NCBI GenBank assembly: GCA_023132155.1
Contig: JAGLYP010000012.1
Coordinates: 1 to 39,041 of the forward strand
Length of the DNA stretch: 39,041 bases
Source: Candidatus Parcubacteria bacterium
GTDB lineage: Bacteria; Patescibacteriota; Patescibacteriia; Patescibacteriales; UBA12075
Direction: 5' to 3'
In this document: positions 1 through 37,647 of the stretch, piece by piece
Layout of the letters: every line of letters begins with the position of its first letter
Numbering within the stretch: position 1 is the stretch's first letter
Notes under the pieces: generated by a model
Told to the model about the DNA's origin: nothing
Databases searched by the model: none
What the model saw: the letters and a program-made list of their open reading frames with translations, nothing else
Program-made: the position numbers and the translations under genes

Positions 1-1149
1 GGTTATTTTTGAAGATTTTGGAATTATTCCGGCAGGGTTAAGCTCGCCAGATTTTTCAATCTTGACATATCTCGGATTTCCTCTTTCCTCAATCATCCTC
101 CCCAAAGCCCCCTCCAACTCCAACCGCCCCAGCCATAATTGATACTCAGCCTCATAGCGGTTAGTATATTGCCGAGCCTTGGCAAATAAAGGCACCTTTT
201 TGGAAAGTCGAGATATTACTTCTTGCCTATCTTTTGGTGTCTTGATTTTTGCGGGGTCTTTAATTTTTATTTTATCTGCTCGCGCGTAATAGCCGTCCTC
301 AATGGCTATTTTCTCTTCATCGGTGAGTTCATCGCCGCCAAATAAATTCTTTATTGCAAGTAAGGAGCTATTTGCCACGCCCTTGGCTTTAACCGGAATT
401 GACCTATTATCTCGTTTTTTTTTGCTATCCTGCAAAATTTTTTCTTCTTTGGAAGTTAATTTTTTCCGTTTTTTAATTTTTGCTTCGATTTTTTCCAATT
501 TCTTCTCTCTATGTTCATCTGCCTGTTCTTCTTGTATATCTTCAATTTCAGCAATTTTTTTATCGGACATGTTGGCTCTAAAAAACTTTATGGGATCAAC
601 TCCAGTATAATGTTTATAGCTTGCCGGAGAAATCATGCACGCTGAATATACAATAACCATAATAATTGCATATCCGTATACCAATTTTTTTAGAAGTTTA
701 GACTGAAAACCCCATAGCGGAGCCGCTAAAAAAATAATAAAGAGGCCAAGAATGATTATCGGCATAACTCCGATATTTCTATCAAAGTGTATTGTCGCGC
801 ATACAAGAAAAAATATTGAAACCCAAATCATCATTTGGCCCAAAAACATTGTCCATACTTTGAGAGCGTCTGTAGTTCCGTTTATCGGTTCTTTTAATTT
901 AGTTCCCGTTCCAATGCCAACTAAGCCTGCCACAATTTTGGGTTGCGATGCAATGAAAGTCGCGGCGATAATAAAAATTATGCCTAGAAAACCGTTAATA
1001 ATCATCAGGTCAAAATAATTTAATGTAATACCAACCATGAAAATGGCTATTGCCGCAAAGAGAAAATCAAACACTTTAAGATGAATAATGTCGTAAAGTT
1101 TATAAGTGTCAATTAAGCCCCTTACAATTATATTTAGAAATCTTCTCAT
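1..1149 (-). CDS. Multi-spanning membrane protein with charged cytoplasmic tail (partial, C-terminus off window)
   Basis: This open frame is missing from the ORF track because it runs off the left edge; reading the minus strand from ATG at 1149 gives 383 codons with no stop. The first ~190 residues hold about five hydrophobic segments (such as FLFAAIAIFMVGITL, MIWVSIFFLVCATI and VMPIIILGLFIIFLAAPLWG). A highly charged stretch rich in Lys and Glu follows (residues ~195-250, probable coiled coil), then a soluble region with no motif I recognise. GGAG lies 7 bases before the ATG. It starts 15 bases after the stop of the 1165-1845 gene and should be its operon partner, driven from the copy 1 leader. 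No family is recognised; a membrane-anchored scaffold or envelope protein is only a guess. The antisense ORFs at 302-610 and 752-1018 are shadows of it. Confidence 0.75.
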   Translation of the reverse strand, partial: MRRFLNIIVRGLIDTYKLYDIIHLKVFDFLFAAIAIFMVGITLNYFDLMIINGFLGIIFIIAATFIASQPKIVAGLVGIGTGTKLKEPINGTTDALKVWTMFLGQMMIWVSIFFLVCATIHFDRNIGVMPIIILGLFIIFLAAPLWGFQSKLLKKLVYGYAIIMVIVYSACMISPASYKHYTGVDPIKFFRANMSDKKIAEIEDIQEEQADEHREKKLEKIEAKIKKRKKLTSKEEKILQDSKKKRDNRSIPVKAKGVANSSLLAIKNLFGGDELTDEEKIAIEDGYYARADKIKIKDPAKIKTPKDRQEVISRLSKKVPLFAKARQYTNRYEAEYQLWLGRLELEGALGRMIEERGNPRYVKIEKSGELNPAGIIPKSSKIT

Positions 1150-1164
1150 AGTATTTCTCCTTTT

Positions 1165-1845
1165 CTAGAAAAAAGTAAACATTCTTGCATACCATCTTTT
1201 TTTTCTTTCTTTTTCAATATATTCTTCTACTGGTTTCAAAATTGGATCAATGGCTTTGGTTTCAAGTTCTTTAACCAACTCATCAAATTTTTTATTTGCG
1301 AGCTTCAGATCAATCTCAGAAAGACTTTGAACGCCAAATACCTTAAGTATTTTTTCCTTAAACCATTTAACGCTGTTTCGCCACTGTTCCAAGGCTTTTC
1401 GCTCAATTGGATTTTCAATAATGACGCCGCCTGATAAACAGCGGCGACGCGCTTCTTCCGGTCCATAGTTCTCAACCAAAAAAGCAATTCGCTTTATAAA
1501 TGAAATTGCGTTATTTCTCTCTTGTACTGTAACTTTTTGATTCTTCTCTGATCTTGTAATCGTTTTTTCTTCAAAATCAGGCATACCGCTTACAATATTT
1601 CGGAAACGATTTCTTTCGTAGTCTTTGCAGGCGTTTAAAAAATCTGTTAAGTGCATATCTTCTTCATCGCTCAAGTGTGTCCTGATAGACGCAAATAATC
1701 TTTCATCTTCAAGCGACAACCCAAGAAATCCCGGTATTCGCGATCTTACTTCTTTTGTTACTTCTTTCCCGCCAAGCGTGTTGGCAAAAGTCATAATCCA
1801 ATTTAAAACATCGGATATTGAATTTATTCCTAATTTTTTTAACAT
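1165..1845 (-). CDS. Uncharacterised soluble alpha-helical protein
   Basis: This is a 226-residue protein, mostly charged and apparently helical, with no signal peptide and no clear membrane segment. The C-terminal third (KFDELVKELETKAIDPILK onward) reads as amphipathic helices ending in a basic, aromatic tail (KKRWYARMFTFF). The start is fixed by AAGGAGG eight bases before the ATG, one of the best ribosome sites in the window. Upstream lies the 248-bp leader (copy 1) with its own promoter. The membrane-protein gene 1-1149 follows after 15 bases, so the two are probably co-transcribed and may interact. I do not recognise the family and propose no function. Confidence 0.7.
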   Translation of the reverse strand: MLKKLGINSISDVLNWIMTFANTLGGKEVTKEVRSRIPGFLGLSLEDERLFASIRTHLSDEEDMHLTDFLNACKDYERNRFRNIVSGMPDFEEKTITRSEKNQKVTVQERNNAISFIKRIAFLVENYGPEEARRRCLSGGVIIENPIERKALEQWRNSVKWFKEKILKVFGVQSLSEIDLKLANKKFDELVKELETKAIDPILKPVEEYIEKERKKRWYARMFTFF

Positions 1846-1978
1846 AATTTCATCCTCCTTATATTACAAAAGTCATTAAATTTTATATATTCTATTGTCA
1901 AAGAGCATCTGTGAAATTAACACTCTTGTTTTTTCTCTTAAAAATCCCAATAATCCAATAAATTCTTAATCCCACGCC

Positions 1979-2063
1979 ATTCCAGCGGTTAGCTTAGCAC
2001 GACAACCGCGTTAAGCGTCTAACGCCTTGTGGCGGTTATTTTGCTTGTCAGCGCCACCGGAAT
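1979..2063 (-). ncRNA. Structured leader hairpin, copy 1
   Basis: This is a 10-bp basal stem around a branched interior; the partner positions differ from those in copy 2 but still pair. It would lie in the 5' UTR of the 1165-1845 transcript, about 45 bases downstream of the predicted transcription start. It could be a riboswitch-like or protein-binding leader, or an independent small RNA. Confidence 0.45.
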
Positions 2064-2105
2064 AGTATGAAATTAAAAGAATATTTGGGTTTTATGAATT
2101 ATTTT

Positions 2106-2134
2106 AACATAGCACAAAATAAAAAATCCGTCAA
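2106..2134 (-). promoter_or_regulatory. Promoter P1 of the 1165-1845 / 1-1149 unit
   Basis: The boxes are TTGACG (2134-2129), a 17-base spacer, and TATGTT (2111-2106). The same boxes, spacing and flanking ATTTTTT.TTTTGTGC are kept in copy 2, which supports function. Confidence 0.6.
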
Positions 2135-2153
2135 GGGTTGGCGGATTTTTTTT
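2121..2153 (-). terminator. Hairpin with T-run overlapping the -35 box
   Basis: The perfect 10-bp arms AAAAAATCCG and CGGATTTTTT flank an 11-base loop, with T-runs on both strands. It could end any read-through from the 2324-4081 gene. The -35 of copy 1 falls in its loop and arm. Copy 2 lacks this hairpin, so it is not part of the shared leader. Confidence 0.5.
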
Positions 2154-2260
2154 GTGTTATTTTAGGAAAAATTTATAAAATAACTTAATTTTAGAGGATT
2201 GAATTCTTGAATATTTTATGCCTTCTATATAATCAACTAACTTTCGATAAGTTGGCGTGA

Positions 2261-2300
2261 AAAAATAAAAAGGGGTACGAAAAAAATTCCACACCCCTTC
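2261..2300 (-). terminator. Rho-independent terminator of the 2324-4081 gene
   Basis: The arms AAGGGGT and ACCCCTT (2293-2299 / 2270-2276) are followed on the minus strand by TTTTATTTTTT, starting 24 bases after the stop codon. Confidence 0.7.
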
Positions 2301-2323
2301 CAAAAAAATTGTAAATTAGATAA

Positions 2324-4081
2324 TTATTTTTTGTTATCTGTTAATTTTTCAAGAAACTTTTTAAGAAATTCGTATGCTCCAAAAAATAAAACAGAGACAG
2401 GAATAATAAAGGCAAAGACAACTGGATCCTTAACTATAGCATAGGCTAAAACAAACATTAATATACCTAAAATTAATAGTATTATAAGCAATATGTTGCC
2501 TCTTCTTTGTTTAAAGCTTTTTAGTTCCTCTTTTTCTTTAAACTTCTCGGCTTCTTCAAGATTTTTTTCTGCCTCTGCAAGTCTTAATTTTTTTTCAGCT
2601 TCAGTCAATTTTTGCCTTTTTTCAGCCAATAGCTCCTTTTTTTTATCCACTAAAAGCTTTTTATTAATTTCAAATTCTTTTGCTTTTAAAAATTCTTTTG
2701 CATCCAGATAGTCAAAATATGTGTTACGTTTGAACGCTGTATTTGCAGCCTCTTTTACTAATTGATATTGACAAATATACCACTCGCCCTTTTTATTTTT
2801 TAATAAAACATTAATGTTGCTAAATGAGCTTTTAAAAGAGGTTATCGCCGCTTTCTTTAACCTGTTAATTAATTGTTTAACTAGCTTTTCAATAGGTTGA
2901 AAATCAGGATCAGATAAAACTTTAATGGCATATTTACGATCATGTTTTGTAATTACGGTTTCAATAATTTTTAAAGCCCTTGAATATTCACCTGATATAA
3001 CATAATATTTAGCTAAATAATAATAAGCTTTAAAATATTTTCTATCAAACACAATGGCTTTTTTTGAATAAACAATAGCATTTTCAATATTTTTTGAAAT
3101 GCTGGCTTCTATCCAAGCTGTGAAAAAACAGCCTTGAGCGGCAATAGAATGAGTTTCTTTTTGAGCCTCGCCATAGGCGGCGCACAACCTATAATGTTCT
3201 AATGCTTTCTGGAAATCGCGGTGCTCTTTTTGATAATGATAAATATGACCGAGTAGCAGATGCGCTAGAGGATTGCGGGAATATAGTTTAACGGAAGCTA
3301 AAAAATGCTTTTTTGCGTCTTTAAACCATTGTGGCTCATCGGGAAATTGATTTCCGTCTGCATAAAATTCAAGCGCATCGTCAAAGTGTTCTTGTGCATC
3401 TGTTTTTCTGCGATTTTCAAGAATATAACTAATATGTTCAAATCCTTCTCTGAATACGTCTTGAAGTAGCTCAATTTGCGTTATCACATTCCCCATGGCG
3501 ATGTTAAGATTTTCTCTTAATTCACCCATCTCCGATCCCAAATCTTTTATGCCCGAACTTATATCAAACAAATCATCGTGAAGAATTTCAAAACCTTTTG
3601 ACACATTTTTTGCCAAAAAATTTGCATTCTCATTTAACGTCTGCCTGATTAAATGTGTTGATAATGCCGTAGACGCAACTTGAACCGTAGCTAAGCCAAC
3701 CATGCCTTTTTTCATTATATTGGTTTGTTCTGTAATTTTATCACCCACATTCATAAAACCATCATCCATAGCGCCAACAATTGTATCCGTATTTTGATTT
3801 AGCGTTTCAATAACTTCTCCGGTATTTTGATCTAGAATATCGGCTAACGCATATATTGAATCATCATTACTGTTAATAGCGTAACGATTTTTATCAAGAT
3901 AGGATTCGTATGAATATTCTTCCCTAACCGCCAATGGATACTCTTTTAACGCGCAAGCAAGTTGTTTTTTGGTAATTTCTGTTTGTTCGGCTAACTGTTT
4001 TTTAATTTTTATTACATCGTGATATTCTTTTTTTCTTTCCCATGGCGCTAATTCATTATGATATGTTCTTAGTAGACCCAT
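2324..4081 (-). CDS. TPR-repeat, coiled-coil, C-terminally membrane-anchored protein
   Basis: The protein has 585 residues. The N-terminal ~230 residues resemble a long helical region with repeated polar stretches (DQNTGEVIETLNQNTDTIV, DGFMNVGDKITEQTN), reminiscent of chemoreceptor-type coiled coil, but no signalling tip is seen. Residues ~235-400 contain tetratricopeptide-like helical pairs (NPLAHLLLGHIYHYQKEHRD, YFKAYYYLAKYYVISGEYSRA). Residues ~470-525 are a strongly charged coiled coil (EAEKKLRLAEAEKNLEEAEK). Two hydrophobic segments end the protein (ILLIILLILGILMFVLAYAI and VFAFIIPVSVLFFGAYEFL). AAGGAGG lies 7 bases before ATG. It is a single-gene unit behind leader copy 2 with its own terminator. 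A scaffold or protein-protein interaction role at the membrane is likely; no specific function is claimed. Confidence 0.75.
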   Translation of the reverse strand: MGLLRTYHNELAPWERKKEYHDVIKIKKQLAEQTEITKKQLACALKEYPLAVREEYSYESYLDKNRYAINSNDDSIYALADILDQNTGEVIETLNQNTDTIVGAMDDGFMNVGDKITEQTNIMKKGMVGLATVQVASTALSTHLIRQTLNENANFLAKNVSKGFEILHDDLFDISSGIKDLGSEMGELRENLNIAMGNVITQIELLQDVFREGFEHISYILENRRKTDAQEHFDDALEFYADGNQFPDEPQWFKDAKKHFLASVKLYSRNPLAHLLLGHIYHYQKEHRDFQKALEHYRLCAAYGEAQKETHSIAAQGCFFTAWIEASISKNIENAIVYSKKAIVFDRKYFKAYYYLAKYYVISGEYSRALKIIETVITKHDRKYAIKVLSDPDFQPIEKLVKQLINRLKKAAITSFKSSFSNINVLLKNKKGEWYICQYQLVKEAANTAFKRNTYFDYLDAKEFLKAKEFEINKKLLVDKKKELLAEKRQKLTEAEKKLRLAEAEKNLEEAEKFKEKEELKSFKQRRGNILLIILLILGILMFVLAYAIVKDPVVFAFIIPVSVLFFGAYEFLKKFLEKLTDNKK

Positions 4082-4214
4082 TAGAATCCCTCCTTTTTAT
4101 TAAATTTTTATATTCTATTATCAAAGAGCATCTGTGAAATTAACACTCTTGTTTTTTCTCTCAAAAATCCCAAAAATCTTAAACCTCCCAACCATCCCAA
4201 ACAATTAATCCCAC

Positions 4215-4335
4215 ACTATTCCGGTGCTAAACCAATAGGGTGGTGAGTGCCTTTTTTTTGTTTGCGGATGTCTAAAACAATAGCCGCTTGCAGTTTATTT
4301 TATCGCATTTTTACTATCAGCACCACCAGAATAGT
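4215..4335 (-). ncRNA. Structured leader hairpin, copy 2
   Basis: The arms ACTATTCTGGTG (4335-4324) and CACCGGAATAGT (4226-4215) pair over 12 positions with a single G-U. Copy 1 has C and A/G changes at the matching positions that keep pairing. An inner GCGG/CCGC stem is also visible. Confidence 0.45.
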
Positions 4336-4373
4336 ATGAAATTAATAAGGATTTTAGATTGATGAATTATATT

Positions 4374-4402
4374 AAAATAGCACAAAACAAAAAATTCGTC
4401 AA
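4374..4402 (-). promoter_or_regulatory. Promoter of the 2324-4081 gene
   Basis: TTGACG (4402-4397), a 17-base spacer and TATTTT (4379-4374), the same geometry as copy 1. Confidence 0.55.
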
Positions 4403-35305: not shown

Positions 35306-36401
35306 TGATTTTAAAAAGAAATATAAAATATACAAGAAAGAAATTGATGGTGCAATAAACAGAGTTTTAAAGAGCGGGTGGTTTGTACTGGGAAATGAAT
35401 TAAGAAGTTTTGAAGAAAATTTTTCCAAATATTTGGGAATAAAATATGTTGTGGGTGTAAATTCAGGCACGGATGCTATATTTTTGGGATTAAAAGCGCT
35501 TGGCGTAAAAGACGGCGATGAAGTGATTACCGTTGCCAACACCGCTGTCCCGACAGTCGCGGCAATACGCATGGCAGGAGGAGTGCCGGTGTTTGTTGAT
35601 ATAGATGAAGACACAATGAATATTGATCCCGGTTTAATTAAAAAAGCGATTACCAAAAAAACAAAAGCGATTTTGCCGGTTCATTTATTCGGCTATCCGG
35701 CTGAAATAAATAAGATATTAAAAATTGCCCGAAAATATAAATTAAAAATAATTGAAGACGCGGCGCAAGCTGTTGGCGCGCAATTCAAAAATAGAATGGC
35801 AGGCACTTTTGGCGATATCGGCTGTTTTAGTTTTTATCCGACAAAAAATTTGGGCGCGTTCGGCGATGCTGGGGCAATAGTTACAAATAATAAAAAAATA
35901 GCCGATAGAGTAAGGCAATTAAGAAATTACGGTGAGGTTTCTAAATATAATAATACTATTGAAGGCGTAAATAGCCGGCTAGATGAAATTCAGGCGGGAA
36001 TTCTTAACTGGGAATTGCAAGAATTGAATCAATGGAATAAAAAAAGAGAAAAGCTGGTAAAATTATATATTAATAATTTGCAAAATGTCTCCGAGATAAA
36101 ATTGCCAATTGATTCTGATAAATTTCATAAAAATGTTTGGCATTTGTTCGTTGTCAGGACAAAACAAAGAAAGCGATTGCAGGATTTTTTATTGAAAAAC
36201 GGAGTTCAGACCGCGATTCATTATCCTATGCCCATATACAAACAGCCGGTTTATAGAAATTTTGGTTTTTCAGATAAAGATTTGCCAAAAACAAAGAAAG
36301 TTATGTCGGAAATTTTATCACTGCCGTTAAATCCTGAATTGGAAGAAAAGCAAGTAAATTATATTTGCGATAAAATAAAATTTTTTTATGCCAGTAAATA
36401 G
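35292..36401 (+). CDS. fdtB: DegT/DnrJ/EryC1/StrS aminotransferase, FdtB-like
   Basis: This PLP-dependent sugar aminotransferase has GVNSGTDAIFLGLKALGV, TVANTAVPTVAAIRMAGG, FVDIDEDTMNID, LPVHLFGYPAEINKI, IEDAAQAVGAQF and the cofactor lysine in FYPTKNLGAFGDAGAI. RQLRNYGEVSKYNN and LDEIQAGILNWELQELNQWN finish the fold. Its place behind the FdtA domain suggests it makes a 3-amino-3,6-dideoxyhexose. It overlaps the next gene by 14 bases. Confidence 0.92.
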   Translation: MILFNDFKKKYKIYKKEIDGAINRVLKSGWFVLGNELRSFEENFSKYLGIKYVVGVNSGTDAIFLGLKALGVKDGDEVITVANTAVPTVAAIRMAGGVPVFVDIDEDTMNIDPGLIKKAITKKTKAILPVHLFGYPAEINKILKIARKYKLKIIEDAAQAVGAQFKNRMAGTFGDIGCFSFYPTKNLGAFGDAGAIVTNNKKIADRVRQLRNYGEVSKYNNTIEGVNSRLDEIQAGILNWELQELNQWNKKREKLVKLYINNLQNVSEIKLPIDSDKFHKNVWHLFVVRTKQRKRLQDFLLKNGVQTAIHYPMPIYKQPVYRNFGFSDKDLPKTKKVMSEILSLPLNPELEEKQVNYICDKIKFFYASK

Positions 36402-37647
36402 TAATAAATTTAAAATAGCTTTTATTGTCGGCGTTTTTCCCGCTGTCTCGGAAACGTTTATTATCAATCAGGTGGCGGATTTGCAGGAAAGAGGCATTGA
36501 TGTGGAAATTTTTTCTTTTAAACGCGGAGGCAAAGAAGGCATTTCGCGGAGATTTTTTGAATACAACATGGCTGAAAAAGTAAAATATTTAGAAATGCCG
36601 CAAAATAAATTTAAGAGGATTTTTTTAGCGCTGCCAAAAATTTTTCAAGTATTGTTTTATAATCCTTTTTTAATTTTCAAAATATTTAATATTAAAAAAT
36701 ATGGAAGAAATTCTTGGAGTTTAAAATTATTATTTTGGGTTACTCCGTTTTTGGGAACAAAATTTGATTTGGCGCATTGCCATTTCGGCCGTATGGCCAA
36801 TAGATATTTAATAATCAGAGAAATTCTGCAATCCAATGAAAAACTAATAACCAGTTTTTACGGTTTTGATGTCAGTATGCTTTTTAAGCAAAAGCCGGCT
36901 GATTATTATGATAAACTTAAAAAGATTTGTTCTTTGTATTTTGTTATGTCAAGCAATATGAAAGACAGGGTGGCGGCACATGGTTTTTCAGAAAAAAAGA
37001 TTAAAGTATTGCCGGTAAGCATAAATGTGTCTGAATATCCGTATCAAGAGAGAAATTTAAAAAAAGATGAAACAATAAATATATTCTCAGTCGGGCGTTT
37101 TGTGGAGAAAAAGGGATTTGATGATTTACTGCGCGCTATCGCCATTGTAAAAGAAAAAACCCAAAAAGCATTTCGGGTTTTTATTGTCGGAGGGGGTCCT
37201 TTGGAAAAAGATCTCCATAAATTGGTTGAGGATTTAAAAATAACGGATATTGTTGAGTATAAGGGTTATATGAAAATAGAGAAAATAATAAAATATTTTT
37301 TAAAAATGCATTTATTCGTTCAGCCGTCAAAAACAGCCAAGGACGGAGATATGGAATAATTTATGAATACGGTAATATCACAAGCCTTGGCAACAGGATT
37401 GCCGGTGATAACAACCAAGCACAGCGGTTTGCCCGATCAGGTTAAAGACGGCAAAAACGGTTTTTTGGTTTTGGAAGGTGATTATAAAGCACTTGCGGAA
37501 AAAATTTTGTATTATATGAATCATCCAAAACTTTGGCCGGAGTTTGGCAAGTTCGGGCGAAAACATGTTCTGGAAAATTATGACGCAAAGTTATTAATAG
37601 ATAAGCAAGTTGAATGTTATTATGATGTAATAGAAGATAAAGAATAA
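36388..37647 (+). pseudogene. GT4-family glycosyltransferase interrupted by an in-frame TAA
   Basis: The first part (36388-37359, 323 aa) starts IAFIVGVFPAVSETFIINQV, has HCHFGRMANRYLI and SFYGFDVS, and ends at VQPSKTAKDGDME. The second part (37363-37647, 94 aa) continues in the same frame with MNTVISQALATGLPVITTKH and the remaining donor helix. Only the codon TAA at 37357-37359 breaks the reading. Related enzymes have Gly at this place (GDMEG-type). There is no homopolymer, so a simple frameshift error does not explain it. It may be a dead gene, a split enzyme made by reinitiation at the ATG 3 bases after the stop, or a consensus error. It is the last gene of the plus operon. Confidence 0.85.

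Follow-up and report, generated by a model that had tools for sequence, protein, structure and literature searches.

Two promoter-leaders of a Candidatus Parcubacteria bacterium carry a putative rRNA-type boxA that may be gated by RNA folding

In this Candidatus Parcubacteria bacterium a promoter and a structured leader occur in two similar copies, each ahead of a protein-coding gene, which raises the question of what such a leader RNA does for the genes behind it. We analysed the whole stretch of 39,041 nt that holds both copies (the window), part of an assembly of 1.23 Mb in 42 contigs, together with related genomes, the nameable relatives in the order being Candidatus Falkowbacteria and unclassified Patescibacteria MAGs. 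The reading we favour, with a probability of roughly 60%, is that each copy is a boxA leader in which RNA folding gates the access of NusB/S10 and which acts by antitermination.

The promoter-leaders lie at 2134-1887 and 4402-4110, where the original prediction had placed them and their parts, both are on the minus strand, and no further full copy was present in the assembly. Aligned with each other (2180-1830 with 4450-4060), the copies agree in the promoter, in both feet of a long hairpin (P1) and, with few differences, in a 3' block of about 60 columns, while the P1 apices of copies 1 and 2 are unrelated, as had been noticed. The -35 of the copy 1 promoter sits within a terminator-like hairpin, AAAAAATCCG...CGGATTTTTT (2121-2151), and transcription plausibly starts near 2099 and 4367. 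A terminator-like hairpin at 2301-2268 parts the two units, and leaders 1 and 2 therefore serve separate transcripts.

1..1149, minus strand: geneB, a membrane protein gene open at the window edge
1165..1845, minus strand: geneA, 226 aa, the first gene 3' of leader 1; in G015 and G324, too, an orthologue is the first gene of the operon
2106..2134, minus strand: promoter of copy 1, TTGACG-17-TATGTT with a TG-extended -10, conserved in the two same-genus loci L010 and L011
2268..2301, minus strand: terminator-like hairpin 3' of the 585-aa gene
2324..4081, minus strand: the gene 3' of leader 2, 585 aa, with TPR, coiled coil and C-terminal membrane segments
4374..4402, minus strand: promoter of copy 2, TTGACG-17-TATTTT, also with a TG-extended -10

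The genes behind the leaders had been described as two unknown transcription units, which is not wholly so, as copy 1 heads an operon conserved in the order. Relatives of geneA were found in G015 (31%, E 8e-43) and G324 (39%, E 2e-37), and homologues of geneB in 10 of 109 genomes of the order by protein search and 13 of 111 by profile, besides one genome of another order. The operon in relatives begins with geneA or another first gene, continues with geneB and ends with T4SS_pilin (PF18895), and its neighbours are often ROK-kinase or trmD genes; a protein scan of a contig collection gave five loci only and nothing beyond the genome search. T4SS pilins of Patescibacteria have been described (PMC12102498). 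An operon that ends in such a pilin may function in contacts with host cells. Between the TPR proteins of copy 2 and of G001 no BLAST relationship was found. Neighbouring G001 proteins (L055, 1635-2591 and 2851-3951) share a C-terminal domain of about 100 aa for which no Pfam family matched; geneB of G010 and its counterparts in G018, G019 and G098 end in a possibly related domain. Elsewhere in the window, 12545-38957 encodes glycosyltransferases, radical-SAM proteins and sugar-nucleotide enzymes and is probably a surface polysaccharide locus; there, a glycosyltransferase-like ORF (36388-37647, plus strand) has an in-frame TAA near 37357 with the same frame resuming at 37363, and represents a broken gene or an assembly error.

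The near-invariant block of both copies, CAAGAGTGTTAATTTCACAGATGCTCTTTGAYAATAGAATATA, contains two parts absent from the original prediction, a further hairpin (P2) and an element of boxA type.

1888..1906, minus strand: boxA-type element of leader 1, GCTCTTTGACAATAGAATA
4111..4129, minus strand: boxA-type element of leader 2, GCTCTTTGATAATAGAATA
1901..1927, minus strand: P2 hairpin of leader 1, AAGAGTGT-(TAATTTCACAG)-ATGCTCTT, with the 5' half of boxA as its 3' arm
4124..4150, minus strand: P2 hairpin of leader 2

The block had been proposed as either a second pairing partner or a binding site, and both guesses look right because it forms P2 and contains boxA. Judged by its sequence, it is an rRNA-type boxA antitermination element. 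The 3' arm of P2 runs on as GCUCUUUGACAAUAUGAAUA, which fits the boxA consensus save for G at position 8, and the window boxA (GCTCTTTGAYA) has no mismatch to GYTCTTTRANA and one (A8 to G) to the published gammaproteobacterial consensus GYTCTTTAANA (PMC5725501). The same G at position 8 occurs in rRNA leaders of the family, as GAACTTTGACAACTGAATA in G008. Both elements lie on the strand of the genes between promoter and first gene, at -48 and -61 from the start codons, and the 39-kb window holds just two instances of GYTCTTTRANAAY, both within the leaders (0.19 expected). These leaders precede protein genes and not 16S rRNA; boxA is placed within the 5' UTR of a protein gene, as in suhB.

The gammaproteobacterial consensus fits several relatives weakly, with three mismatches in the f4 leaders, and the identity of boxA therefore rests on the local rRNA leaders. 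A matrix was trained solely on 10 rRNA-leader boxA sites from ten genomes, chosen by boxA likeness at a roughly constant place ahead of the 16S gene, and applied to 16 operon leaders, in all of which its best site was the expected one. Against dinucleotide shuffles p was at most 0.01 in 12 of the 16, between 0.014 and 0.054 in three and 0.09 in G014, where boxA is only weak; the combined p of 3e-19 is a guide only, since kinship within genus and family inflates it. Operon boxA sites were found in families f1, f2, f4, f5, f16 and f18 and in another order (G324), mostly 46-67 nt ahead of the start codon in leaders otherwise quite different in sequence. As no 16S rRNA gene was found in the window's own assembly, the boxA of its own rRNA leader was not seen.

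Reading TTGACAATATGAATATAAAA in the block as a promoter was rejected, because a convincing -10 is missing at 16-18 nt and almost the same strings stand in rRNA leaders. Exact scans of genome and viral collections gave no match to the 3' block. A block pattern with three mismatches gave, in the own genome, 30 listed matches of which 26 lay in ORFs and the others were unlike such leaders, its spacing being one that missed both known copies. The rRNA leaders of the order (L049, L051, L052, L134, L139, L140) show a terminator-like hairpin and U-run (e.g. ACAGATTGTAAGATCTGTTTTTT) directly 5' of boxA, as if rRNA transcription could attenuate before boxA is made. In L138 to L142 the 16S matches are oddly long (2605 nt in G020, 1811 nt in G101) or broken near model position 873, reflecting inserts, introns or assembly faults.

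P2 pairs AAGAGUGU with AUGCUCUU in the window and AAGAGCAU with AUGCUCUU in G001 and G002. Its arms by family are AAGAGYRU/AUGCUCUU, AUGUGC/GCACAU, AAAGGA/UCCUUU, AAGGUUCGA/UCGRACCUU, AGGGUUCAA/UUGAACCUU, AAGGUGC/GCACCUU and AAGGUCU/GGACCUU. Three of the seven pairs change on both sides, with five pair types at boxA position 2 and three each at positions 3 and 5; such changes occur in 12 P2 cells (nine distinct sequences), a figure that none of 500 shuffles reached. As the arms were picked as best helices, the percentage of pairing is partly so by construction, and a fairer test is the score of the best helix between the first seven boxA bases and the 40 upstream bases against shuffles of those 40. 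By this score P2 was significant (p <= 0.05) in 12 of 15 operon leaders, the exceptions being G004, G031 and G324, with a combined p of 1e-12 that overstates independence because the leaders are related. Scoring 11 rRNA leaders in this way gave p 0.89, with no such helix evident. Taken alone, P2 in the genus of the window is modest (-6.6 kcal/mol, p 0.02).

The long hairpin upstream is of a different character.

1964..2078, minus strand: P1 of leader 1, a long hairpin with variable apex, z -8.3
1967..1975, minus strand: right foot of P1, leader 1, GTGGGATTA, whose partner is the left foot TAATTTCAT or the P2 loop
4203..4346, minus strand: P1 of leader 2, with a longer and unrelated apex
4206..4214, minus strand: right foot of P1, leader 2, GTGGGATTA

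Its fold is much more stable than those of shuffled sequences, with energies of -53.5 kcal/mol in copy 1 and -40.5 kcal/mol in copy 2 (z -3.1) and with z of -4.8 and -4.6 for the homologues in the two same-genus genomes; none of 200 shuffles did as well. In the alignment A3, 97% of P1 cells pair, against about 50% when the partner is slid by one base. The covariation claimed for this hairpin is genuine but thin: 17 of 23 pairs never vary, two change on both sides and 57 of 500 column shuffles do as well, and it is weak by itself because most pairs are invariant. The feet are kept across the genus (UAAUUUCAUACUAUUC / GGAAURGYGUGGGAUUA), while the sequence of P1 differs between genera and is not conserved outside its own. 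P1 may also have roles other than gating.

Further copies do exist in relatives: a DNA search recovered the homologous leader in two same-genus genomes, G001 (L010) and G002 (L011), once each and ahead of other genes. The check proposed with the prediction, a covariance-model search, was run with P1 on 381 genomes of the class and returned copy 1 alone, a weak negative because the strict filters lost even copy 2. Among 111 genomes of the order, DNA search gave only short low-complexity matches outside the three same-genus genomes, and the three inspected resembled coding sequence. Repeats have been inserted into the linker that joins P1 to the block, the genome-wide GGGATTTTTGGGATTTTT repeat in the window and an unrelated repeat of about 150 nt at the same place in G002, so the distance from P1 to the block is not fixed. 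In the linkers at 1928-1966 and 4151-4205 a genome-wide GGGATTTTTGGGATTTTTGAG repeat is present, which also occurs on contigs C5, C16, C40 and C42. A structured regulatory RNA in the 5' UTR is thus borne out by homologous leaders in related genomes, but the suggested new class goes too far, because boxA, which forms the core, is an element of a kind already known and the sequence of the long P1 is specific to the genus.

In four leaders (G015, G018, G019, G023) the 5' arm of P2 is the right foot of P1, and complete P1 and complete P2 therefore exclude each other, with energies of about -40 kcal/mol for P1 and about -10 to -12 kcal/mol for P2; the overlap was established in no other family. In the genus of the window P1 and P2 can coexist and the choice is limited to the P1 foot, which has two alternative partners, its left arm (-6.8 to -9.7 kcal/mol) and the P2 loop (-8.9 to -11.4 kcal/mol). 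Although three positions distinguish the P2 loops AUUUCAC and AUCCCGC, both are still complementary to the P1 foot GUGGGAU, a pairing matched by 0.7-1% of shuffled loops. A strand-exchange switch would require two alternative pairings of nearly equal energy, as predicted here.

NusB and ribosomal protein S10 (NusE) bind boxA as single-stranded RNA and, on boxA, modify the elongating RNA polymerase. In the mechanism that we propose, each copy would be an mRNA 5' leader bearing an rRNA-type boxA, and a closed P2 would hide the 5' half of boxA and should block loading, because NusB/S10 binds it single-stranded. P1, longer and upstream, would compete for the same strands. Pairing of the P1 foot with its own left arm, or some other event that opens P2, would expose boxA, the Nus complex could assemble and the modified polymerase would run through the long membrane-protein operon (geneA, geneB and, in relatives, a T4SS-type pilin). 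The sequences themselves show the conserved boxA-type element, P2 with its compensatory changes, P1 and the pairings that overlap or alternate, whereas Nus binding, gating by P2 and the antiterminating sign are things that we infer. Antitermination by boxA is reported for rRNA and CRISPR arrays (PMC10250234, PMC7862264), addition of boxA having raised array transcription about tenfold (PMC7862264), and it is established that other bacteria carry boxA in the leaders of some genes that are not rRNA genes (PMC5725501). A regulated antitermination switch, in which competing or exclusive folds set the openness of boxA and make expression of the T4SS-pilin-associated operon depend on the Nus/S10 pool or on a signal that P1 senses, is a tentative extension, at somewhat less than even odds.

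The same boxA leader could have the opposite sign, with boxA-bound Nus factors acting as translational repressors of the first gene, as in suhB, and P2 shielding the mRNA from such repression. In E. coli suhB, Nus factors recruited by boxA repress translation, and still do so when as many as 100 nt are inserted between boxA and the Shine-Dalgarno site (PMC5725501), and the window boxA lies about 35 nt ahead of that site. We consider repression unlikely, though the strongest of the rivals, as the operon is long with several genes and antitermination is the simpler benefit; that preference is a judgement resting on operon length and on a boxA away from the Shine-Dalgarno site.

A ligand-sensing riboswitch, with P1 as aptamer, the 3' block as expression platform and only an incidental likeness to boxA, would account for a leader that is structured, duplicated and conserved at its base and for the choice of strands between P1 foot and P2 loop. 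It appears improbable, since not even the two copies have loops or an apex of P1 in common, there is no Rfam match, and beyond the genus it is boxA that is conserved and not the sequence of P1. Equally doubtful is that rRNA-leader DNA survives here, as a relic or a copy, in the role of a strong promoter-leader, with P1 and P2 as mere 5' stabilisers. The element does resemble rRNA leaders and stable 5' hairpins commonly protect mRNAs, but boxA alone is shared: the stem GGCGCTAACAGGCGCC beside the rRNA boxA and the terminator-like hairpin are missing from the operon leaders, to which P2 is specific. A mobile or recombination element (an attC-like or transposon-end hairpin) that moved the promoter to two places would fit the duplicated unit, the conserved feet with variable apex and the repeats inserted between P1 and P2, but was rejected as very improbable, since the genome holds two copies only, both ahead of genes at similar spacing, orthologous leaders stay with one operon across the order and there is no phage or plasmid match.

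Returning to the gated boxA leader, the usual view of boxA is of a signal that acts constitutively on rRNA genes and has few targets besides. Should a conserved hairpin that the rRNA leaders of these bacteria lack indeed cover boxA in this operon, Nus loading could be gated by folding, which suggests that these ultra-small bacteria may use a folded, switchable boxA on a conserved membrane-protein operon. The leader also opens a first way into gene control in Patescibacteria. To our knowledge no boxA gated by a conserved hairpin has been described, and a small literature search found no description of one competing with P1; on Patescibacteria and antitermination it gave one paper, on groundwater plasmids, with a single mention of antitermination. 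At gathering score Rfam 15 had no match to the leaders, a tRNA being its sole match in the window, relaxed thresholds gave nothing credible, and phage and plasmid records had no match to the leader.

Among known systems, the rRNA leader (boxB-boxA-boxC, NusB/S10/NusA/NusG) likewise has a boxA-type sequence 3' of a strong promoter with a hairpin upstream, and the window-type element fits the rRNA-leader boxA of the same order, whereas the operon leaders precede protein genes and fold boxA in a conserved hairpin that the group's rRNA leaders lack. The suhB-type leader (PMC5725501) shares a boxA in the 5' UTR of a protein gene and few targets per genome, but belongs to another phylum, has boxA 6 nt from the Shine-Dalgarno site as against about 35 nt here, and is unlike a membrane-protein operon with structured upstream RNA and P2. 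The boxA leaders of CRISPR arrays (Stringer et al., cited in PMC7862264) also stand ahead of a long non-rRNA transcript, whereas the array is non-coding and the passages cited describe no conserved hairpin hiding boxA. The EAR element, LoaP hairpins and HK022 put RNA are likewise structured leader RNAs of long operons engaged in processive antitermination, but differ in sequence and structure from the leader here, which is boxA-cored and unmatched in Rfam. As boxA leaders of protein genes are already known, the leader is not a new kind.
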